A stretch of 64,000 nucleotides of DNA from Halopelagius longus (lineage in GTDB: Archaea > Halobacteriota > Halobacteria > Halobacteriales > Haloferacaceae): the NCBI RefSeq assembly GCF_900100875.1, contig NZ_FNKQ01000002.1, forward strand, positions 186,001 to 250,000, written 5' to 3'. The notes beneath the pieces were generated by a model. That model did no database searches and was not told the origin of the DNA. It was given only the letters and a program-made list of their open reading frames with translations. Made by a program: the position numbers and the translations under genes. Shown piece after piece: positions 21,276-47,189 of the stretch (the stretch's first letter is position 1; each line of letters opens with the position of its first letter).

Positions 21276-22442
21276 ATGCGATTAGACGAGCGAATCGAAC
21301 GGCGGAGGCGACGCGAGAGCGGGGCGAACCGGCTGGTTCGGGACATCTCGGCGTTGGACCCGACCGCCCACCCCGACGAACCGACCGGGCGGGGGCCGAC
21401 GCTCGAACGACTGCTCGACCGCCTCGACCCGGCGTTCGCGGGCGAACTGCCGGACGACACCTACGTGTACGGTCCGAAGGGAGCCGGGAAGTCGGCCCTC
21501 GTCACCGCCCTGTTCGACCGCCTCGCCGAAACCGCGCGGAACCGCCCGCGGGTCATCCACACGACCACCCGCGCGTCGTCGCCGCCGGCGGTGGAGTTCG
21601 CCTACGTGGACGGGCGGGCCGCGACCAGCGAGTTCGCCCTGCTTCGCGCCGTCCTCGACGCCGTCGTCGAGGAGTCCGTCCCCTCCGGCGGCGTCGGCAC
21701 CGCCGCGGTGAGAGACCGACTCGGCGACGTACTCGGGCGCGCCCGCCGCGTCGTCGTCGCCGTGGACCACGTGGGCGAACCCGAGACGCTCCCCGTCGAA
21801 CGCCTCGCCGACGTGTTCGCCCCCGTCTCGGAGTCGCTCTCCTACGTCGCCGTCGGCCGGGCCGCCCCCGAGCGCTCGGACCTCGCGACGGTCGAGGTAC
21901 CGCCGTACGAGCGACACGCCCTCGCGGACGTACTCACGAGTCGAACGTCGGACGGACTCGCCCGCCACGCCCTCGGCCACGACGCCGTCAGCGACGTGGC
22001 GGCGTGGGCCGACGGCGACGCCCACGACGCACTCGCCGCACTCTACGGGGCGGCCGTCGAGGCGGCCGACGCGGCGACGGACAGGATCGAACCCCGCCAC
22101 GTCGAGGCCGGGATGGCGGGCGTCCCCGCCGACTGCTGTTCGCTCGGGCGCGTCGGGTCGCTCTCGGCCAGTCGCCGCCGCGTCCTCCGCGAACTCGTCG
22201 CACTGGAGGGCGACGACCGGGCGTCCGTCACCCGCGCCGCCGCCGCCATCGCCGACTCGCCGACCGTGGAACTCTCTGCGGCCACCGTCAAGCGCCTCCT
22301 CTACGAACTGTCGGAACTCGGCGTGGTTCGCCGCGTCGCGGGGGACGCAGAGGGCGACTGCGGCCCCGGCCGACCGCCGAGCAGACCCGAACCGAACTTC
22401 CCGATGCGGGTGTTCGAACGACTCGCCGACCCCGAGCGCTGA
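21276..22442 (+). CDS. Orc1/Cdc6-like AAA+ ATPase, divergent
   Basis: A protein of 388 residues with a Walker A motif GPKGAGKS at 66-73 and a Walker B-like VVVAVDH at 159-165 in which the usual second acidic residue is His165. The layout (short basic N-terminus, AAA+ core, C-terminal winged helix from about residue 285) matches Orc1/Cdc6 replication initiators. The core is more divergent than in principal initiators, and the Asp-His pair may lower ATPase activity. Haloarchaea carry many Orc paralogues, several without a known origin. The name is by architecture and synteny; function at an origin is not shown. Confidence 0.72.
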   Translation: MRLDERIERRRRRESGANRLVRDISALDPTAHPDEPTGRGPTLERLLDRLDPAFAGELPDDTYVYGPKGAGKSALVTALFDRLAETARNRPRVIHTTTRASSPPAVEFAYVDGRAATSEFALLRAVLDAVVEESVPSGGVGTAAVRDRLGDVLGRARRVVVAVDHVGEPETLPVERLADVFAPVSESLSYVAVGRAAPERSDLATVEVPPYERHALADVLTSRTSDGLARHALGHDAVSDVAAWADGDAHDALAALYGAAVEAADAATDRIEPRHVEAGMAGVPADCCSLGRVGSLSASRRRVLRELVALEGDDRASVTRAAAAIADSPTVELSAATVKRLLYELSELGVVRRVAGDAEGDCGPGRPPSRPEPNFPMRVFERLADPER

Positions 22443-24449: not shown

Positions 24450-25484
24450 TCAGTCGAGGCCGCCCCCCGCGGCGGCCTCGTCGCGTTCGTCCGCCCCGTG
24501 CGGCGGTTCGTCCTCGAAGTCGCCGAGGCCGGCGTAGCGGTCCACGGCGACGACCGCGACGGCACCGACGACGGCGGCGACGACGAACACGCCGACGAGT
24601 TCGGCGTTCCACGCCCGGCCCATCTCCGCGAGTTGGCTCCCGGCGCTCTCGACGGGCGCTCTGAGTGCGCCGACGATGAGTGCGACGAGGAACGCCAGCG
24701 TCGGCTTTCGGTGGTGTTCGAGCGCCCACCGGACGGCGTGGGCGACGGTGAACAGTCCGACGAACGCGCCGAGGACGAACGCGACGACGATTGCGCCGTT
24801 CTCTACGACGGGTGCGAGACTCCCGCCGAGGACGAACCCCAACAGGCCGTTGACGAACTCCTTCAGCGCCCCGGTCATGAACTCGTACTGTCCGAGGAGG
24901 ATGAGGAGCAACGACCCCGATAGCCCCGGCAGTATCATCGCGCTGACGGCTATCGCACCCGCGACGAACGTCACGAGGGGGCCGGATCCGAGGGCCGTTT
25001 CGGCGGTGCCGGAGACGACGAACGCGACGGCGAACCCGGCGACTGCGGCGCCGACGCGTCCGGGCGTGTCGAGCGACAGTTCGCTCAGGAGCACCCACGC
25101 CGAGGCGGCGATGAGGCCGAAGAAGAAGCCGAACGTCGGGACGGGAAACTCCGTGATGCCGGTGTGGACGAGTCGGGTCACGGTGACGACGGCGGTCATG
25201 ATGCCCGCGCCGAGGACGACGAGGAACGGGGCGTCCACCGCACGAAGCGCTTCGACGGCCCGCTTGCGGCGGCCGGGGAGGACGCCGCCGAGTACGTCGC
25301 GTATCCGGCCGGGAGAGACGTTCGTCACGGCGTCGATGAGTCGCTCGTAGATGCCGGTCAGGAGGGCGATGGTCCCGCCGGAGACGCCTGGGACGGCGTC
25401 GGCGGTTCCCATGCAGAGGCCTTTCAGATAGACCACGAGCCACGCGGTGAGGCCGCCGCGCGACTCGTCGGGGTCGTGGGACAT
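24450..25484 (-). CDS. DUF368 polytopic membrane protein (PopT-type polyprenyl-phosphate translocase family)
   Basis: A protein of 344 residues with about ten hydrophobic segments. Two related motifs, PGVSGGT at residues 32-38 and PGLSGS at 186-191, mark the inverted repeats of the DUF368 family. Bacterial DUF368 proteins (PopT) have been reported to return undecaprenyl phosphate across the membrane. Here the gene is divergent from aglM, with 138 bp between starts, at the edge of the N-glycosylation locus, so dolichyl-phosphate recycling is a reasonable inferred role. The C-terminus is a hydrophilic tail. Confidence 0.85.
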   Translation of the reverse strand: MSHDPDESRGGLTAWLVVYLKGLCMGTADAVPGVSGGTIALLTGIYERLIDAVTNVSPGRIRDVLGGVLPGRRKRAVEALRAVDAPFLVVLGAGIMTAVVTVTRLVHTGITEFPVPTFGFFFGLIAASAWVLLSELSLDTPGRVGAAVAGFAVAFVVSGTAETALGSGPLVTFVAGAIAVSAMILPGLSGSLLLILLGQYEFMTGALKEFVNGLLGFVLGGSLAPVVENGAIVVAFVLGAFVGLFTVAHAVRWALEHHRKPTLAFLVALIVGALRAPVESAGSQLAEMGRAWNAELVGVFVVAAVVGAVAVVAVDRYAGLGDFEDEPPHGADERDEAAAGGGLD

Positions 25485-25622
25485 GCGACTCCCTTCGACA
25501 CCCCTCTACTCCGGTGTTTCGCTTCTCGCACGCGTTCGAACTCGAACGCGTTCTGGGTCGGTCGCTTCGCCGACTGGGAGTAAGGAGAACGTTGAAAACG
25601 ACTGACGAAGACTACTCGCACA

Positions 25623-26915
25623 ATGGAGATAAGCATCATCGGTAGCGGGTACGTCGGCACGACGATAGCCGCGTGCTTCGCGGAGGTGGGACACGACGTC
25701 GTGAACGTCGATATCGACGAGGACATCGTGACGTCGCTGAACGACGGCGAAGCGCCCATCCACGAACCCGGACTCGACGAACTCGTCGAGAAACACGCGG
25801 GCGACCGACTGCGGGCGACGACCGACTACGACGCCATCTTAGAGACGGACGCGACGTTCCTCGCGCTTCCGACCCCCTCGGAGGACGACGGCCACATCGA
25901 CCTCTCCATCATGGAGGCGGGCGCGCGGTCCGTCGGCCGAACGCTCGCCGACAAGGAGGGCTACCACGTCGTCGTCACCAAGAGCACCGTCGTCCCGACG
26001 ACGACGGAGGAGGTCATCGCGCCCATCCTCGAAGAGGAGTCGGGCCTCGAACTCGGGAGCGACTTCGACGTCGGCATGAACCCCGAGTTCCTCCGCGAGG
26101 GGAGCGCCGTCGCCGACTTCCTCGACCCCGACAAGGTCGTCCTCGGCTCTCAGACCGACCGCGCGGCGACGGTCCTCCGGGACGTGTTCGACCCCCTCGT
26201 CGAACAGGCGGACTCGCCGCCGGTCATCGAGACTGGCGTCCGAGAGGCGGAGATGATAAAGTACGCCAACAACGCCTTCCTCGCCTCGAAGATATCGCTC
26301 GCGAACGACCTCGCGAACATCTGCAAGGAGTACGACATCGACTCCGAGGAGGTGTTAGACGCCGTGGGTCTGGACTCCCGCATCGGGTCGGCGTTCCTCG
26401 GCGCGGGCGTCGGGTGGGGCGGCAGTTGCTTCCCGAAGGACGTCGCCGCCATCGTCGCCGCGGCGCGGGACGTGGGCTACGAGGCCAAGATGCTCGAAGC
26501 CGCGGTCGAGGTCAACGACAGACAGCCCGTCCGGATGCTCGACATCCTCCGCGACCACGTCGACCCCTCGGGGGCCCGCGTCGCCGTGTTGGGACTGGCG
26601 TTCAAACCCGGCACCGACGATGTGCGCAACTCCCGCGCGATTCCGCTCATCGACGCTCTCCTCGACGCGGGCGCGGACGTGGTGGGCTACGACCCCGTGG
26701 CGACGGAGAACATGCGCGACCACTTCCCGGACATCGACTACGCCGACTCCGCGGCCGAGGCGTTGGCCGACGCCGACGCCGCACTCGTCGTCACCGACTG
26801 GGACGAGTTCGCCGCCTTGGACGACGAGTTCGACGCCATGACCGACGCCGTCGTCGTGGACGGCCGCCGCATCGTCTCCCGTCGCGACGGCATCGTCTAC
26901 GAGTCGCTGGTCTGA
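25623..26915 (+). CDS. aglM: UDP-glucose 6-dehydrogenase (AglM-type)
   Basis: A nucleotide-sugar 6-dehydrogenase of 430 residues that oxidises UDP-glucose to UDP-glucuronate with NAD. The NAD-binding GSGYVGTTIAACFAEVGH begins at residue 7, MNPEFLREGSA is the family stretch for sugar binding, and the catalytic Cys is Cys269 in GGSCFPKD. ANNAFLASKIS and GLAFKPGTDDVRNS complete the signature. It is convergent with aglB. In Haloferax the enzyme provides hexuronic acids for the S-layer N-glycan. Confidence 0.95.
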   Translation: MEISIIGSGYVGTTIAACFAEVGHDVVNVDIDEDIVTSLNDGEAPIHEPGLDELVEKHAGDRLRATTDYDAILETDATFLALPTPSEDDGHIDLSIMEAGARSVGRTLADKEGYHVVVTKSTVVPTTTEEVIAPILEEESGLELGSDFDVGMNPEFLREGSAVADFLDPDKVVLGSQTDRAATVLRDVFDPLVEQADSPPVIETGVREAEMIKYANNAFLASKISLANDLANICKEYDIDSEEVLDAVGLDSRIGSAFLGAGVGWGGSCFPKDVAAIVAAARDVGYEAKMLEAAVEVNDRQPVRMLDILRDHVDPSGARVAVLGLAFKPGTDDVRNSRAIPLIDALLDAGADVVGYDPVATENMRDHFPDIDYADSAAEALADADAALVVTDWDEFAALDDEFDAMTDAVVVDGRRIVSRRDGIVYESLV

Positions 26916-27080: not shown

Positions 27081-30000
27081 TTACGCGGCGCGGGCCGCGG
27101 CCGTCTGCGCCGTCACGTCGGCGTCGGACGCCGCGAGCGACGACTGTTCGCTCGACCCGGAGTCGGAGGACCCGCCGTTCGAGTCACCGCCGGAGTCCGA
27201 GGAGCCGGAACCGATCTGTAACTGCTGTGCGCTGCGCTGCAGTTCGACGGAGAGGTTACCGTCCTCCGCGCCGTTGACCTGCCCCTCCTCGACGGAGAGG
27301 TTCGCGCGCTGGCTGACGACGTAGCCGCTCTCGTTGAGCGACGTGCCCGCGGAGATGGTGTACGAACCGTTCGCGCGGACGCTGACGTTCGTGTAGCCGT
27401 TCTCGGGGCCGTACTCGTCGTAGCCCGTCGTGGCGTACGGCAGCGTCATGGTGAACTCGCCGTTCTCGTCGGCCTGCGCTTGCTGCGTGTAGGTGAACGT
27501 GGAGTTCGTCGCCGGCACGTTCATCTCGACGCTCGCGGTGACGGTGGAGTTGGCCGGTGCGCCGCTTCCCTGCACCGTCGCGCCGGGCACGCGCTCGAAG
27601 GACTTCACCCACGCCGGGTTACTGGGGAGCGTGGCCTGCGGGTTGACTCCCGCCATCTGACCGTCGCTGTACATCTGCCGGAGGAAGTCGTTCGACTGCG
27701 TCGCCGAGGAGTTCGACACCTTCACGAGGCGGTAATGCTCCAGCGCGGGGACGCGCTCGGAGGGGTACGACCCGATGCCGCCTATCTGCGAGGTGCCGTC
27801 CTGTTGGACGTACTGCCGCGCGGCGCTCATGTTGTCGAACGTCTTGACGGTGGTCTCGTTCCCTTGCGGGACCGCCTTCACCGTCGTCTGGCCGGAGCCG
27901 GTACTGACGCTCTGGGGCTCCCAGTCCACGACGACCGGACTCGGCTCGTGGGCGCTCCCGTGGTAGAGGTAGAGGCGCGTCATCAGGCTCTCGTAGTAGC
28001 GCTGGTGACGGACGAGGTAGTTACCCTGATACTGGCCCTCCTGATTGAACCGGTATATCGGCTCGTAGAACTGGTTCTGCGAGATGTTGCCCGCGTCGTA
28101 GAACACCGTCGGCGCGCCGAACTTCGAGCCCGGGGTCGCCATCTTCCAGTCGACCATCACGTACCGGGTCTGGTTGCCCTCGGTGCTCTGGGAGGCGAGG
28201 ACGTTCTGCGCCTGCGTCTCGTTGGGTGCGAGCAGGAAGTTCGCCGCGTCGGTCGCGCCCTGCTGGAACGGGTTGGCGTTCGGGATTCGCTCGCCTTCGA
28301 CGGTGATGAAGTGACCGTAGTCCCACCACGACATCACGCCGTAAGCGCCGTCGCCGTACTGGTAGTCGTCGGTCTTCTCGTACTTTCCGTAGTACTCCAT
28401 CGCGCCCGACGACCCGCCGAACTCTCCCTCGGCGGGCGTGTTGCTCTTCATCCACTCGAGGTTGCCCTCCCACTGGACGATTTCGCCGGGACTGCTACCT
28501 TGGCTCGCCTGCCACGCCGTGTTCGTCTTGTCGGCGGCGGGGTTGCCGGTGTTCCGCACGTCGAGTGGGACGACGAGAACCGGCGCGGCGACGAGGAGGA
28601 GGACCGCCCCGATGGCCGCTATCTGGTACGTCTCGAGGTCGGTGGCTTTCGTGGTCGCCGCCCTCACGTTCAGCAACCGGAGCACCTCCACGAGGAAGTA
28701 CGCGTTCAGCACCACGACGACGACGGCGAGGTAGTAGTTGAAGCGAACCTGCGTGAACGCCGCCGACGTGATGAACGCCGCCCAGACGACGACGAGCAAC
28801 CGTTCGGGGTCGCGGTAGGTGAGAAGCGCGGCGCCGACGATGATGGCGCTGACGATTCCGAGCGAGACGAGTTGGCCGTCGAGACCGACGACGTTCCCGA
28901 TTCCGATCGGAATCGCCGGCACGAGAAAGAGGAGACCGACGACGGCGAGACCGCCGACGACGTAGCCGATATCGCGGCTCTCTCGGCTCTTCACGAGCGG
29001 TTTCGCGAGCATCCACACGACCGCCGCGACGGCGGTGAAGAACGTGAAGCCGTAGTCGGAGACGATCCGATTGACGGCCGTCAGTTGGAGCTGATTGAGC
29101 GTACTCTGTGCGAGGTACGGTTGGGCCTCGCCGATGGTTCGAGTCGTGGCGTTCGCGCCGAACCCGAGCGTGTTCAGGAAGTTGTAGACCAGAATGCCCC
29201 ACACTCTCGGAAGGACGAGGGCGACGACGCCGAGGGAGACGACGATCAGTCCGAACACCGCGACGGGGTAGCCGTTCGCGTCGATGTCACGCGCCTCCCA
29301 CTCGCGGGCGAGCCACGCGAGGAAGGCCGCCCCCGCGGCGACGGCGAACGAGAATCCCGGTTGAATGAGGGAGAACTGCGTCGACGAGAATCCGAACTCG
29401 TCTATCTGGATCAGCATCAACACGCCGGTGACGCTCATCGACACCGCGGCGACGAACGCCGTCGCCTCGGGCGAACGGCCGTTGACGACGTCGCTCGACA
29501 TCTTCAGGACGACGAACGTGCCCACGATGGCGACGAGGAGAACCCCCGGCGGCCAGACCCACATGTACAGCGCGGTTGCGACGCCCGCGAGAGCCGACCA
29601 CACGAGGGGCGACCGGATGGCGTCTACGTCGCGGTCGGCGACGAGTTCCCAGACGGGCATCTCGCGCTCGGCGACGCCCAAGGCGACCATCAACGCGGCG
29701 ACGGCCATCGACATGAAGAACGGCTCGGCGGCGTTGTGGTCCGCGAACCCGACGAGGGTGCGCTGGAGGAACGTTCCCGGCATCAGACCGAGGAGGAGAG
29801 CGCCGAACAGCGCCGGTCCGCGACCGGCGAGGCGCTTCCCGATGAGGTACGCCGGAATCGCCGCGAGCGCGCCGAAGACGGCCGGTGCGACGAGGAGTAC
29901 CTTCCCGACGAGCGCCTCGCTCGGGCTTCCGAGCCCGACTATCAAGGCGGCCGTCGCGATAATCTGGTCGTACAGCGTCCCGAACTGGCCGACACTCGTC

Positions 30001-30266
30001 CCGTAGGGGAAGTTCGTCCACGGGTCGAACGGCATCGTGAACGGCCAGTTCCTGACGGTGTAGCTCACCTCTCGGAGGTGATACCATGCGTCGTTTCCGG
30101 AGAAGAACACTTCTCCGTCTCGTATGAATCTACCGTACGACTGGAGTCGGATGGCCAGCATCGCGGCCATCACCACGAGGAGGGCGGGGACGTGGTACCA
30201 GTCTGCGAAGCGTTCGAGGACCGACGGTGATTCGTAGTCCTCGCGACGCTCGTTGTCTACGCTCAT
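27081..30266 (-). CDS. aglB: Archaeal oligosaccharyltransferase AglB
   Basis: A protein of 1061 residues. The N-terminal half is a chain of about 13 membrane segments; an early loop carries the SGNDAWYHLREV stretch whose Asp is the family's metal-binding residue. The catalytic-site signature WWDYG is at 647-651. The C-terminal globular part contains LYLYHG and a long Ser/Gly/Asp-rich end. It transfers the lipid-linked glycan to Asn in N-X-S/T sites outside the cell, mainly S-layer and pilin proteins. It is convergent with aglM and separated by about 120 bp from the sugar-nucleotide genes to its right. Confidence 0.97.
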   Translation of the reverse strand: MSVDNERREDYESPSVLERFADWYHVPALLVVMAAMLAIRLQSYGRFIRDGEVFFSGNDAWYHLREVSYTVRNWPFTMPFDPWTNFPYGTSVGQFGTLYDQIIATAALIVGLGSPSEALVGKVLLVAPAVFGALAAIPAYLIGKRLAGRGPALFGALLLGLMPGTFLQRTLVGFADHNAAEPFFMSMAVAALMVALGVAEREMPVWELVADRDVDAIRSPLVWSALAGVATALYMWVWPPGVLLVAIVGTFVVLKMSSDVVNGRSPEATAFVAAVSMSVTGVLMLIQIDEFGFSSTQFSLIQPGFSFAVAAGAAFLAWLAREWEARDIDANGYPVAVFGLIVVSLGVVALVLPRVWGILVYNFLNTLGFGANATTRTIGEAQPYLAQSTLNQLQLTAVNRIVSDYGFTFFTAVAAVVWMLAKPLVKSRESRDIGYVVGGLAVVGLLFLVPAIPIGIGNVVGLDGQLVSLGIVSAIIVGAALLTYRDPERLLVVVWAAFITSAAFTQVRFNYYLAVVVVVLNAYFLVEVLRLLNVRAATTKATDLETYQIAAIGAVLLLVAAPVLVVPLDVRNTGNPAADKTNTAWQASQGSSPGEIVQWEGNLEWMKSNTPAEGEFGGSSGAMEYYGKYEKTDDYQYGDGAYGVMSWWDYGHFITVEGERIPNANPFQQGATDAANFLLAPNETQAQNVLASQSTEGNQTRYVMVDWKMATPGSKFGAPTVFYDAGNISQNQFYEPIYRFNQEGQYQGNYLVRHQRYYESLMTRLYLYHGSAHEPSPVVVDWEPQSVSTGSGQTTVKAVPQGNETTVKTFDNMSAARQYVQQDGTSQIGGIGSYPSERVPALEHYRLVKVSNSSATQSNDFLRQMYSDGQMAGVNPQATLPSNPAWVKSFERVPGATVQGSGAPANSTVTASVEMNVPATNSTFTYTQQAQADENGEFTMTLPYATTGYDEYGPENGYTNVSVRANGSYTISAGTSLNESGYVVSQRANLSVEEGQVNGAEDGNLSVELQRSAQQLQIGSGSSDSGGDSNGGSSDSGSSEQSSLAASDADVTAQTAAARAA

Positions 30267-35021: not shown

Positions 35022-36782
35022 ATGGAAGTCTCGCTTGTGGTTCCTGCACACAACGAGGAAGGCAATTTACGCCGCCTCGTGGAACGCATCACGGCGGTCC
35101 TTTCCCCTCCAGATTTCGACCACGCTCTGGAAATCGTGTTAGTCGACGACAACAGCACCGACTCGACGCCGAGTCTCGTCGACGGACTCGCCGACGAGTA
35201 CCCGTGCGTCACCGTCGTCCACCGGTACGAGAACGGCGGCTTCGGGAACGCGATAAAGGCAGGGCTGAAAGCGGCGTCCGGCGACGTGCTCGTCCCGTTC
35301 ATGGGCGACCTCTCGGACGACCCCCGCGACGTGCCGAAGATGATCGAGGCCATCGAGGACGGCTACGACGTGGCGTACGGCTCTCGGTTCGCCGACGGGG
35401 GATCAGTCGACGGCTACCCGCCGTTGAAGCTCTTCTACAACCGCTCGTTCAACAACCTCATCCGCCTCTCGTTCGGCATCCGCGCCCGCGACGTGACGAA
35501 CGCCTTCACCGCGTACCGGCGAGAGGTCATCGAGGAGATAGACGTGGACTCGCTCGACTCCGAGAGCTTCGACCTGACGGCGGAACTGCCGCTTCGGGCG
35601 CACATCCTCGGATTCCGTAGCACGGAGGTCCCCGTCTCGTGGCGGAGTCGCGACGAGGGCGTGAGCAAACTCAACGCCACGCGAAAGGGGCCGCTCTACC
35701 TGAAACGCCTCGCGCAGATGTTCGTCGTCGGGAACGCCGTCGGTCTGAAGGACCTCTTCGAGTCGGTCGTCAGCGGGAGTCTCGCGAAGGTGTTCGGCGC
35801 CGCCCTGTTCGGCGTCCTCATCCTCGTTGCGCTCTTCTCCCTGAGCGGATTCGACGGCGTCTTCGACGTGCTCTCCTCGGCGAACGGCGGATGGCTCACG
35901 GTCGCCGCCGTCGCCTACCTCCTCTCGTTCGGGTTTCGGACGTGGCGGTACCGCGTCCTCCTCAGGGCGGCAGACAGCATCGCCACCCGGGGCGGCGTGT
36001 TCCGGTCCATCACCACCGGCTGGTTCGTCAACTTCATCCTCCCCGCCCGCGCCGGCGACGCGGTCCGCGCGTTCGCGCTGAAATCGACGGAGGACGTGCC
36101 GGTGAGCGTCGGCGGCGGCCTCATCGTGGTCGAACGCGCCTTCGACATGGCCGTGCTCGGAACGGCGATGGTCGCCGTCTCGCTGCTGTTCGTCGACGTT
36201 CCGAGGGCGGGGTATCTCGCCTTCGCGGCGTTCGGCATCGCGGCCGCCCTCGTCGCCGGCCTCGTCGCCGTCTCCGTCGGCGGCGACAAACTGTCCGACC
36301 GGGTGAGCGAGCGGTTCCCCCGACTGGGATCCGGCCTCGTGAACCTCCGAGAGATGGTCGCGAAAGTGGGGACGAACCCCTTCGCGTTGGCGCTCTCAGC
36401 GTTTCTGTCCGTTCCGGTGTGGGTGCTGGAGGCGAGTACGATCTACTTTAGCGCGCGCGCGGTCGGCCTCTCGCTGACGGGCGTCGCGACGGTGACGACC
36501 GCAGTCGGCGCGTTCGTCGCGCAGGCGGTGCCCGTCACGCCCGCCGGCATCGGGACGTACGAGGCGACGATCACGGCCATCCTCTCGCTGTTCGGCGTCG
36601 AGCCCGTGGTCGCGACGAGTCTCGGCCTCCTCGATCACTTCATGCGCGTGGCGGTCATCTACGTGGTCGGCGCCATCAGCACCGTCCACATCGGATTCCG
36701 CTCGCGGGCCTACTTCCGCGACCGCTCGCGCGCCGCAGACGAGGCGACGATGTCCGCGGGAGTCTCGGAGAACAGACGATGA
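35022..36782 (+). CDS. GT2 glycosyltransferase fused to LPG-synthase-type membrane domain (AglD-like)
   Basis: A two-part protein of 586 residues. Residues 1-240 are a family-2 glycosyltransferase: VVPAHNEEGNL, VLVDDNSTDST and a GDLSDDP acidic motif. Residues about 260-565 are a multi-span domain of the UPF0104/LPG-synthase type, with GWFVNFILPARAGDAVRAF and TPAGIGTYEA as signatures. The same fusion is found in Haloferax AglD, which makes mannosylated dolichol phosphate. It probably charges a dolichol phosphate with one sugar. Its last four bases overlap the start of the next gene (ATGA). Confidence 0.9.
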   Translation: MEVSLVVPAHNEEGNLRRLVERITAVLSPPDFDHALEIVLVDDNSTDSTPSLVDGLADEYPCVTVVHRYENGGFGNAIKAGLKAASGDVLVPFMGDLSDDPRDVPKMIEAIEDGYDVAYGSRFADGGSVDGYPPLKLFYNRSFNNLIRLSFGIRARDVTNAFTAYRREVIEEIDVDSLDSESFDLTAELPLRAHILGFRSTEVPVSWRSRDEGVSKLNATRKGPLYLKRLAQMFVVGNAVGLKDLFESVVSGSLAKVFGAALFGVLILVALFSLSGFDGVFDVLSSANGGWLTVAAVAYLLSFGFRTWRYRVLLRAADSIATRGGVFRSITTGWFVNFILPARAGDAVRAFALKSTEDVPVSVGGGLIVVERAFDMAVLGTAMVAVSLLFVDVPRAGYLAFAAFGIAAALVAGLVAVSVGGDKLSDRVSERFPRLGSGLVNLREMVAKVGTNPFALALSAFLSVPVWVLEASTIYFSARAVGLSLTGVATVTTAVGAFVAQAVPVTPAGIGTYEATITAILSLFGVEPVVATSLGLLDHFMRVAVIYVVGAISTVHIGFRSRAYFRDRSRAADEATMSAGVSENRR

Positions 36783-40284: not shown

Positions 40285-41820
40285 TTAATTTGAAAATGAC
40301 TGCAGAACTGTCTCTACCAACTCCGCGACGCTATTGTCGACGAATCTGAGCATCACGGCCAAAGCGAGTACGTAGGCGAGGACGCCGAGAAGTACCTTCA
40401 CGCAGAGAGCCGCGAGAGCGGGGAGAGTTGGGAGGGCGTTTGCAGTCGCGAGAACGACGAGACTCATCGCCACAGATGCGCCGAACGGTATGAACGTCGG
40501 GCGGAGTAAGTCGTGTATCGTCGTCTCCAGTTCCCGCGCGACGATGAACAGGCTCCACGGAAGAACGACGAACGCGTTACCGGTTATCAGGAGTCCCGTT
40601 CCGACGATTCCCCAAGCCTCGGTTACGGGGTAGATCAGGACGGCGATGAGCGACAGTTTCACGATCTGGATCTTCGTGACCGTCTTCGGCCGCCCGACCG
40701 CGTTCAGTAGGGGACCGGACGTGTGACCGACGGAGCGCAGAAGCCCCCACCCGGCAAGGATCTGTATCACGACGATTGCCGACTGCCACTCCTCTCCGAA
40801 GGCGAGGTGGACGAACTCGGGGGCGACGAGAGCGATTCCGAACGCGGCGGGGAACGAGAACAACGACGATATCTGTACGGTCCGTTTGTACGTTTCTCGG
40901 AGGGCGTCGATATCGTTTTGCAGCTTCGAGAACGCGGGAAACATCACCGAGGTCAGTACTTGCGATATCTCCGTCGCGGGAGTGTTGGATATCTTGTACG
41001 ACATCTGGTATATCGCCAGCGCCCCCGACCCGAGTAACCAACCGACGAACACGTCGTCCCCTTCTCCTATCAGAAATCCGATTAGCCCCGCCGAAAATAT
41101 CCACTGTCCGTACCCGAGGAGGTGTTTCGTCTGCTGTACGTCCACGTCGAAGCGCGGGCTGTAGCTAGTGAGTTTGAACGACACTACGGCCCTCATCGCC
41201 TCTGCGGCTATCCTCCCGATCACGAACGCCCACACGGTCTGGTATCGGTACACGAGGACGATCGCGATCACGAACTCCACGACCGTTCCGCTCAGTTTGA
41301 ATACGAGTTCCTTGTCGAACTCTAGATCCTTCCGTAGATAGACCACGGCGGGGTTCTGGAGTCCGACGAAAAACAGCACCAGGCCGGTGAGCCGAAGGAA
41401 CTCGCTCACCCGAGGCTCTCCCCAGAGTGACGCGATGAGGGGGCCGACGGCGAACATCACACCCGCGACGAGAACGCCCCGCAGTACTCTGATCGTCCAA
41501 ATCGTGTCGAAGTAATCGTCGACGTTCTCGCTCGGTTTCTGTATTATCGCTTCGTCGAACCCTAAATGCGTAAAGCGACGGAGGGCGATTATCGTGAGGA
41601 TACACATACTGATCAACCCGTACTGGGAGGGCCCCAGCACTCGACCTAAGATGACGAGTTCGACGAGTACGAGCGCTCTGTCGCTTACGTTCAGCGCGGT
41701 TGCCCACAGCCCACCCTTGATTATTTGGTCGGTCAACTCGCCGGTCGGCTTCAACCTCGAAAGAATCGACGCCACCGTCCCCGGTGAGGACGTCTCCGAG
41801 TCGGGGTTTTCGCGAGACAT
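40285..41820 (-). CDS. Wzx/MviN-type polysaccharide flippase
   Basis: A protein of 511 residues with about 14 membrane segments. ILGRVLGPSQYGLISM near residue 60 and YGQWIFSAGLIGFLIGEGDDVFVG near 230 match the WzxC/polysaccharide-synthesis family of lipid-linked oligosaccharide flippases. Haloferax AglR, from the same type of locus, is assigned to this role. The gene is lower in GC than the flanking housekeeping genes. It lies six bases after the GT4 gene in the same unit. Confidence 0.9.
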   Translation of the reverse strand: MSRENPDSETSSPGTVASILSRLKPTGELTDQIIKGGLWATALNVSDRALVLVELVILGRVLGPSQYGLISMCILTIIALRRFTHLGFDEAIIQKPSENVDDYFDTIWTIRVLRGVLVAGVMFAVGPLIASLWGEPRVSEFLRLTGLVLFFVGLQNPAVVYLRKDLEFDKELVFKLSGTVVEFVIAIVLVYRYQTVWAFVIGRIAAEAMRAVVSFKLTSYSPRFDVDVQQTKHLLGYGQWIFSAGLIGFLIGEGDDVFVGWLLGSGALAIYQMSYKISNTPATEISQVLTSVMFPAFSKLQNDIDALRETYKRTVQISSLFSFPAAFGIALVAPEFVHLAFGEEWQSAIVVIQILAGWGLLRSVGHTSGPLLNAVGRPKTVTKIQIVKLSLIAVLIYPVTEAWGIVGTGLLITGNAFVVLPWSLFIVARELETTIHDLLRPTFIPFGASVAMSLVVLATANALPTLPALAALCVKVLLGVLAYVLALAVMLRFVDNSVAELVETVLQSFSN

Positions 41821-45275: not shown

Positions 45276-46031
45276 TTACTCCGCTTCGCCCTCGACGTTC
45301 GCTTTCTCCGCCTCCCCGCGTTCTTCCTGCAACCGACGCTCCGCCTCGTCTCGGTCCTCCGGGTAGCCGACGTCGATACGCCACCCTTCGAGGCGCAACG
45401 CGTCGATGGTGCGTCCGCTCTCTATCAACAGGTCCACGGCGTCGGATATCTCGTACTCGCCGCGGTTCGACGGTTGCACGAGGCGACACGCGTGGAATAT
45501 CGCCGGGGAGAAGGTGTAGAACCCCGTCATGACGAGGTTCGACGGCGGGTCATCGGGCTTCTCGACCACGTCGGTTATCTCGCCGTACTTGTTGGTGTCG
45601 CAGACGCCGTACCGACTCGCTTCCTCCCACGGCACCTCCTCGACGAGGAAGGCGGCGTCGGCGCGGTCCTCGCGTTGGCGTCGGACGACGTCGCGCAGGT
45701 TCGCTTGGAAGACGTTGTCCCCGAGCATCAGCATGAAGTCGTCGTCTATCTGGTCTTCGACGGTCAAAAGCGCGTGCGCGAGCCCCTTCTGTTCGCGTTG
45801 GTGGGTGTACGTTATCGGGATGCCCTCGTACTCGTCGCCGTAGTGGCTGATGATCTGCTCTTTCTGGTACCCGACCACGAGGACGAACTCCTCGGCACCG
45901 AGGTCCCGGAGTTGGTCGAGACAGTGGGTGATGATCGGTTCGCCGTCGATTTCGACCATCCCCTTCGGTTTGTCGTCCGTGAGCGGTCGGAGTCGAGTTC
46001 CTTTGCCCGCCGCGAGAACAACCGCTTGCAT
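45276..46031 (-). CDS. aglF: UTP-glucose-1-phosphate uridylyltransferase-like (AglF-type)
   Basis: A nucleotidyltransferase of 251 residues without the beta-helix tail of its paralogue in this locus. AAGKGTRLRPLTDDKPKGM is the nucleotide-binding loop, MLGDNVF the metal-binding Asp region and VEKPDDPPSN the sugar-phosphate site. I chose the ATG at 46031, at the start of the enzyme. It heads a seven-gene minus-strand unit that ends with the CgeB-like gene. The symbol rests on locus position and family, and base specificity is not proved. Confidence 0.83.
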   Translation of the reverse strand: MQAVVLAAGKGTRLRPLTDDKPKGMVEIDGEPIITHCLDQLRDLGAEEFVLVVGYQKEQIISHYGDEYEGIPITYTHQREQKGLAHALLTVEDQIDDDFMLMLGDNVFQANLRDVVRRQREDRADAAFLVEEVPWEEASRYGVCDTNKYGEITDVVEKPDDPPSNLVMTGFYTFSPAIFHACRLVQPSNRGEYEISDAVDLLIESGRTIDALRLEGWRIDVGYPEDRDEAERRLQEERGEAEKANVEGEAE

Positions 46032-46142
46032 GCCTCGCTTTTCTCCGCCTGTGAGTATATACCCCACGCGGAGACGCACGCGCTGTGTCGAGACGCATCT
46101 GCTGCGCCGTCGACCGAACGCCGCCGACAGAGACAGCAATCC

Positions 46143-46150
46143 TTTTAGAT
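46143..46150 (+). promoter_or_regulatory. TATA box of aglJ
   Basis: TTTTAGAT, centred about 26 bases before the ATG at 46173. The spacing makes that ATG, rather than the one at 46164, the likely leaderless start of aglJ. Confidence 0.6.
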
Positions 46151-46172
46151 ACCCCACGAAGAAATGCGGCCA

Positions 46173-47189
46173 ATGCCCCCGCTCGACTCCGTCTGCGTTC
46201 TCATCCCGACCTACAACGAGGCCGAGACCATCGGTCGCGTCGTGGACGACTTCCGCCGCGAGGGCTTCGATAACATCCTCGTCATCGACGGCGGGTCCGA
46301 AGACGGCACCGTAGACGTCGCGGAGGAACGCGGCGCGCGGGTCGCCATGCAGTCGGGGTCGGGGAAGGGACAGGCCATCCGCGAGGCCGTCGAGTACCAC
46401 ATCGACGCGCCGTACATCCTGATGCTCGACGGCGACGCGACGTACCGCGCGGAGGACGCACAGGCGATGCTCGAACCCTTAGACGAGGGGTACGAACACG
46501 TCATCGGCGACCGGTTCGCCGACATGCGCGATGGGGCGATGACGAAGTTCAACCAGATAGGCAACGGCATCGTCAACGACGCCTTCGCGGCCATCCACGG
46601 CCAGAACTTCGAGGACATCCTCTCGGGCTACCGCGCGTTCACGCGCGAATCGTTCTCGCGGATGACCCTCACGGCGGACGGGTTCGGCGTCGAGACGGAG
46701 ATGGCCGTCGAGTGCGTCAAGCGGAACATCGAGACGGCCGTCGTCCCCATCACGTACCTCCCCCGTCCCTCCGGGTCGGACACGAACTTACGGCCCATCC
46801 GCGACGGCGGCATCATCTTTCTGGAACTGTACCGCCGCGCGAAGACGAACAACCCGCTGTTTTACTTCGGGAGCGTCGGCGGCGTCTCCACCCTCGCGGG
46901 CGTCGCACTCGCGGCGTACGTCGGCGTCGAGTGGGTCACCCGCGGCATCTCCCACGAGGTCATCGCCGTCGTCGCGGCGTTCGGCATCCTGTTCGGCGTC
47001 CAACTTCTGATGTTCGGCGTCCTCTCGGACCTCATCCTGACGCTGCACCGCGACACGCTCCGGAAGATAGACGACGAGTTCGAGTCGGCCGACGCCGGCG
47101 AGGCGGCGGACGCCGGTGAGACGGCGGCCCCCGCCGAGGACGCCCCCTCCCCCGACGGGGAGACGGTCGAACGGACCAACCGGCGGTGA
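46173..47189 (+). CDS. aglJ: Dolichol-phosphate glycosyltransferase AglJ
   Basis: A protein of 338 residues. The family-2 domain has VLIPTYNEAETIGRV, VIDGGSEDGTVDVA, GKGQAIREAV and the metal motif MLDGDATYRAED. Two C-terminal membrane segments (about residues 225-250 and 262-290) and a Glu/Ala-rich tail follow. AglJ adds the first sugar to dolichol phosphate in Haloferax N-glycan assembly, and the gene marks one end of the agl locus there too. A second ATG three codons upstream is possible, but the TATA spacing favours this start. Confidence 0.92.
   Translation: MPPLDSVCVLIPTYNEAETIGRVVDDFRREGFDNILVIDGGSEDGTVDVAEERGARVAMQSGSGKGQAIREAVEYHIDAPYILMLDGDATYRAEDAQAMLEPLDEGYEHVIGDRFADMRDGAMTKFNQIGNGIVNDAFAAIHGQNFEDILSGYRAFTRESFSRMTLTADGFGVETEMAVECVKRNIETAVVPITYLPRPSGSDTNLRPIRDGGIIFLELYRRAKTNNPLFYFGSVGGVSTLAGVALAAYVGVEWVTRGISHEVIAVVAAFGILFGVQLLMFGVLSDLILTLHRDTLRKIDDEFESADAGEAADAGETAAPAEDAPSPDGETVERTNRR

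Follow-up and report, generated by a model that had tools for sequence, protein, structure and literature searches.

Among the described systems that come closest to the gene analysed here are the bacterial undecaprenyl-phosphate translocases PopT (a name that reportedly goes back to Roney and Rudner), VCA0040 and SAOUHSC_00846, which have in common with its product the PF04018 domain (DUF368), two PGxSG motifs and predicted re-entrant hairpins. Our protein differs from them in that it is archaeal, that a dolichyl carrier and not C55-P is expected for it, that its gene stands behind an oligosaccharyltransferase gene and that its scores fall below the equivalog level. BacA/UppP also takes part in lipid-carrier recycling, as we propose for DUF368, but by current assignment it is a pyrophosphate phosphatase and not a translocase. 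The route by which spent dolichyl phosphate returns to the inner face in archaea is, to our knowledge, not settled. In bacteria the same job as that of DUF368 has been proposed for the DedA/UptA proteins (PMC9876793, PMC10127716, in the passages that concern them), which belong to a different Pfam family (PF09335). According to the published description of the DUF368 mutants (PMC9876793), C55-P builds up at the bacterial cell surface and the bacterial proteins act on the uncharged carrier; Sit et al. also connect the family with tolerance of salt and pH and mention dolichol phosphate in that paper.

A haloarchaeal DUF368 protein like ours, HVO_RS12060 of Haloferax volcanii, has been tested in V. 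cholerae, where, as far as the published description goes, the test was one of growth in the bacterium and the homologue partly restored the alkaline growth of a DUF368 mutant (Sit et al. 2022, PMC9876793). Because of this complementation the family assignment is not new, and the statement of an earlier note on this DNA that no returning protein had been assigned in archaea has to be softened. What is added here is an aglB-DUF368 unit that extends through the class in a fixed order and often with overlapping genes; our literature search found no paper joining DUF368 and AglB, nor any naming HVO_1532 or HVO_1533. We regard DUF368 as the best candidate for the protein that returns the spent carrier into the haloarchaeal cell. 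If this is true, the bacterial model of carrier recycling would come to cover another lipid and another polymer, and the presence of the unit in the tractable Haloferax turns the question into a one-deletion experiment.

The DUF368 gene and its place in the agl cluster

The window, by which we mean the whole stretch of 64,000 nt of the Halopelagius longus genome that was analysed, contains at 24450..25484 (minus strand) an open reading frame with an ATG start and a profile match, coding for a PopT-like DUF368 membrane protein of 344 amino acids. In the profile search this protein matched PF04018 with an E value of 5e-63 and 213 bits (gathering cut-off 26), its residues 25-276 corresponding to profile positions 1-227 of 246, and each half of the protein carries one PGxSG motif, PGVSGG from P32 (residues 32-36) and PGLSG from P186 (residues 186-190). 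Both motifs are found in all 71 haloarchaeal DUF368 sequences compared, unlinked copies included, and conservation among these sequences is at least 93% at 61 positions of the window protein, including D29, R48, the two motifs and Q199-Y200. Identity to the named Haloferax relatives is 64-66%, and the scores against the PopT equivalogs of NCBIfam (88.7 bits for NF052563 and 185.7 bits for NF052564) are far under the 400-bit cut-off. The AlphaFold model, with 13 sequences as alignment input and a mean pLDDT of 79.8, predicts a helix, a break and a short helix at each PGxSG motif, which is the pattern expected of re-entrant hairpins. Searching the PDB with the protein sequence gave no matches at E up to 1, and Foldseek with the model gave none at E up to 0.001, the best VIA structure comparison having a Z of 7.1 and an rmsd of 11.7 with 137 residues. 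Neither a DedA nor a DUF368 structure was among the fold-search matches listed, which does not imply that the fold is novel.

The start of DUF368 is separated by 138 bp (25485..25622) from that of the divergent aglM, coding for UDP-glucose 6-dehydrogenase (25623..26915, plus strand; NF041297, 757 bits against a cut-off of 670), and the earlier description of a DUF368 gene with both PGxSG motifs diverging from aglM across this gap is confirmed by the reading frame and by the PF04018 and AglM matches. The same description had aglB as the next gene; this oligosaccharyltransferase gene (27081..30266, minus strand; TIGR04154, 966 bits against a cut-off of 450) is indeed next beyond aglM and on the strand of DUF368, but it does not adjoin DUF368 itself, with aglM lying inverted between the two. 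The cluster also contains a MOP-type polysaccharide flippase (40285..41820, minus strand; PF13440, 6e-78; NF007773 at 243 bits, under its cut-off of 273), which is a candidate exporter of the charged carrier, aglF for UTP-glucose-1-phosphate uridylyltransferase (45276..46400, minus strand; NF041313, 445 bits against a cut-off of 400) and, at its far end, aglJ for dolichyl-phosphate N-glycosyltransferase (46164..47189, plus strand; TIGR04182, 451 bits against a cut-off of 325). The start of the aglJ reading frame overlaps that of aglF, which is over-extended, the true aglF start probably lying further downstream because the family match begins at residue 124. DUF368 is, in the window, the end gene of this aglJ-to-aglM cluster. 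Comparative work on Haloferax gives aglJ and aglM as the two ends of the H. volcanii cluster (PMC5867893), and with these published limits the DUF368 gene of the window falls just outside the end that is usually drawn.

Two other genes of the window deserve mention. The one at 35022-36782 codes for a family 2 glycosyltransferase domain fused to a flippase-like LPG_synthase_TM/TIGR00374 domain, its product having weak similarity to dolichyl-phosphate hexose transferase, and the one at 21276-22442 codes for an Orc1/Cdc6-like AAA protein that scores under most curated cut-offs and stays close to DUF368 in several relatives.

The order of aglB and DUF368 across Halobacteria

DUF368 was detected in 239 of 242 Halobacteria genomes, and so was AglB; matches were missing in G187, G206 and G021 for DUF368, and in G187, G206 and G226 for AglB. 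The assemblies of G187 and G206 are broken into 180 and 160 contigs, respectively, so that a single missing stretch could delete both genes, and this pair was not used. G021, an assembly of 120 contigs, has AglB and no DUF368 match, and G226 has DUF368 and no AglB match, AglB being absent at its DUF368 locus too. Co-occurrence of DUF368 with aglB across haloarchaea, which had been suggested as a check, is therefore saturated and weak as evidence, both genes being near universal in the class.

The relative position of the genes was examined in the 219 genomes in which both could be placed (G021, G187, G206, G226 and 19 others being left out). In 159 of them no more than 5 kb separates DUF368 from aglB, and DUF368 is always on the strand of aglB and downstream of it, 149 genes being directly adjacent (at most 600 bp between profile ends) and 10 standing at 1.8-2.7 kb. 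For a genome of about 3.5 Mb, the chance that a random place falls within 5 kb is roughly 0.3%, to be read against 159 of 219 genomes that are related and not independent. The linkage spans 52 of 72 genera and nine of ten families (f1, 75/82; f2, 17/17; f3, 21/40; f4, 22/53; f6, 5/6; f7, 6/6; f8, 7/7; f9, 5/5; f10, 1/2; f11, 0/1), and inspection by eye showed the two genes to be adjacent also in five of the genomes left out (G008, G009, G011, G015 and G027). Thus the positional link of DUF368 with agl genes put forward earlier holds in the form of a same-strand, downstream order, and by its conserved linkage to aglB the gene is a candidate member of the agl gene set in Halobacteria. DUF368 is away from aglB in the other 60 genomes, one of which (G118) is no real test since it entered with a weak second STT3 match only.

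The junction between the two genes was studied in 29 tandem aglB-DUF368 loci using the longest reading frames with mechanical starts. The distance from the aglB stop to the DUF368 start ranges from -4 to +6 bp in 17 loci and from 38 to 123 bp in 12, a later ATG being likelier as the DUF368 start than that of the longest frame at locus L091. The end of aglB and the start of DUF368 are fused in TAATG, TGATG and similar strings in several genera, and stop-start overlaps of this kind usually point to translational coupling. The gene met most often on the upstream side of aglB (11 of 29 loci) is a divergently oriented one from the AglG cluster, of which the one member tested scored above the AglG cut-off; AglG is a glycosyltransferase that acts on dolichyl-phosphate-linked sugar. 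A MOP flippase gene directly precedes aglB on the same strand in four of the 29 loci, which, taken with the flippase in the window cluster, points to an exporter being already present. Genes downstream of DUF368 belong to 19 different strand-and-cluster classes among the 29 loci, so that the pair persists in varying surroundings. At L007, L008, L010 and L035 a type I phosphodiesterase family protein, the MOP flippase, aglB and DUF368 are encoded in a one-strand run.

The pattern conserved across the class is hence aglB followed directly by DUF368. The promoter region shared with aglM, on which the earlier note had placed weight, is not conserved, and we rejected it as the key link because it is a derived feature, aglM between aglB and DUF368 having been seen only in a few genera of the family of the window. 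Gaps of 1.8-2.6 kb between aglB and DUF368 occur in g1 (the genus of the window), in one of seven genomes of g3, in five of ten of g7 and in the sole genome of g19; aglM lies between the two genes in the window and at L031, L033, L038, L105, L106 and L107, and among the ten wide-gap genomes G043 holds a different gene there and G152 and G211 were judged by the gap alone. Four g3 genomes retain the divergent DUF368-aglM pair with aglB elsewhere. An alignment of the 138-bp gap showed little conservation, its ends being loose and some of the starts being tblastn ends, and an AT-richer block could be seen by eye near the aglM start in most of the aligned relatives.

In the tree of 72 DUF368 proteins we counted seven changes between linked and unlinked states. 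With midpoint rooting, the deepest split has linked sequences in both of its halves, and a single clade (SH-aLRT 93) of families f3, f4 and f11 takes in 19 of the 25 unlinked sequences. Read most simply, this indicates an old association with aglB in Halobacteria, a later arrival of the inverted aglM among the relatives of the window, and replacement by a different DUF368 lineage in parts of f3 and f4. A haloarchaeal DUF368 clade away from aglB is represented by loci L056-L060, L062-L068 and L094-L098; the unlinked genes at L062, L065, L066, L067 and L094 are near a family 2 glycosyltransferase and a methyltransferase, and in g26 genomes the unlinked gene adjoins one for a NamA-like oxidoreductase. 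A Nanohalarchaeota metagenome bin carries a DUF368 gene (L013, 7580-8455) whose product has 44% identity to the window protein and is placed in the tree among aglB-linked haloarchaeal sequences, reflecting either transfer from a host or mis-binning.

In a phylum sample of 246 genomes, DUF368 was present in 76, of which 34 are non-Halobacteria (about 34 of 203). STT3 was found in all of these 34 genomes and in 16 of the 19 checked that have no DUF368. None of the 34 showed DUF368 within 5 kb of STT3, the genes being on different contigs in 21 and on one contig in 13, with five pairs within 20 kb by eye. In four of five genomes of family f30 STT3 lies 12.6-14.4 kb from DUF368, a proximity that we counted as incidental because a chaperonin-like gene lies between them and they have other genes as direct neighbours (three loci, by eye). 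With no close pair outside the class, the link to aglB is a haloarchaeal feature in this sample.

Proposed return of dolichyl phosphate and its alternatives

We consider it fairly probable that DUF368 completes the dolichol cycle in N-glycosylation by bringing dolichyl phosphate to the inner leaflet after AglB has acted. At the inner face, AglJ and other transferases would assemble the glycan with dolichyl phosphate as carrier, the MOP-type flippase would export the glycan-charged carrier, and AglB would hand the glycan to protein, leaving dolichyl monophosphate on the outer face; DUF368 would then return its phosphate head group to the inner leaflet by a pathway that may be lined by the two repeated re-entrant hairpins bearing the PGxSG motifs. 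We infer the transport step from the bacterial relatives, and dolichyl phosphate as substrate, the inward direction and service to AglB above all are likewise inferred. The earlier proposal of a return transporter serving AglB gains strength from the class-wide order of the two genes, its transport part keeping this basis in analogy. In Haloferax, dolichol phosphate is the carrier on which glycans are assembled, and the AglB substrates of H. volcanii are described as dolichol-phosphate linked (PMC3871713). When its glycan donor is monophosphate-linked, AglB releases dolichyl phosphate, which makes a phosphatase unnecessary, and this carrier form is of the sort that DUF368 proteins are thought to handle. 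The alternative of dolichyl pyrophosphate as the released carrier, also allowed earlier, is not favoured in view of these substrates and of the window genome, where BacA had no matches. The same genome has seven DedA/VTT matches, six of them over the cut-off, and carrier return may for that reason be redundant.

The presence of DUF368 in 239 of 242 genomes regardless of location, the identity of the invariant residues (both motifs included) between linked and unlinked copies and the published association of the family with salt and pH tolerance would all suit a general translocase of polyprenyl phosphate or anionic lipids that stands near aglB and serves several pathways, such as other dolichyl-phosphate sugars, exopolysaccharide or the low-salt glycan, and not AglB in particular. 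We think this rather unlikely, as a one-sided, same-strand and often overlapping order after aglB in 159 of 219 genomes is unexpected for a housekeeping gene. Adjacency to aglB would be explained equally well by an outward flippase that feeds AglB with dolichyl-phosphate-linked glycans, and the sequence does not give the direction of transport. This role is nonetheless improbable given the MOP-type flippase of the window cluster and of the four tandem loci, the action of the bacterial relatives on the uncharged carrier (as described in PMC9876793) and the export already proposed for Agl15 and AglR in H. volcanii (in the account of PMC3871713). That the order has no functional meaning, being ancestral and retained by chance or by operon structure alone, would fit with the relatedness of the genomes and with the separation of the two genes, neither being lost, in several lineages (genera g3, g26 and g36 and most of family f4). 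It seems to us slightly more improbable still, for the pair persists in 52 of 72 genera with varying genes beyond DUF368, and its junctions often overlap.

A second STT3 and its association with BacA

The proposed return role of DUF368 beside AglB bears on a second observation. BacA is present in 30 of 59 Halobacteria, and a second, weaker STT3 match accompanies it in 28 of these 30 genomes, compared with six of the 29 that are without BacA (Fisher p 7.5e-9, a value overstated by kinship; a short match in G003 with E 3e-4 is left out of the count). This company would be expected if dolichyl pyrophosphate were released and had to be dephosphorylated first, and it suggests a pyrophosphate-linked carrier for the second STT3, possibly in a separate glycosylation system. 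We tentatively raise the possibility of two oligosaccharyltransferase systems divided by carrier chemistry, AglB with DUF368 for a monophosphate that is returned directly and the second STT3 with BacA for a pyrophosphate; were this so, archaeal N-glycosylation would have in DUF368 its return transporter dedicated to the monophosphate. BacA lies within 50 kb of the main AglB in only one of the 30 genomes. From the second STT3 it is less than 5 kb away, and even less than 2 kb, in seven of 28 genomes, and less than 50 kb away in 18 of the 28. Examples of the second STT3 are found at G004:C3:228297-231595, G021:C3:5555-8735 and G026:C1:3060192-3063584.
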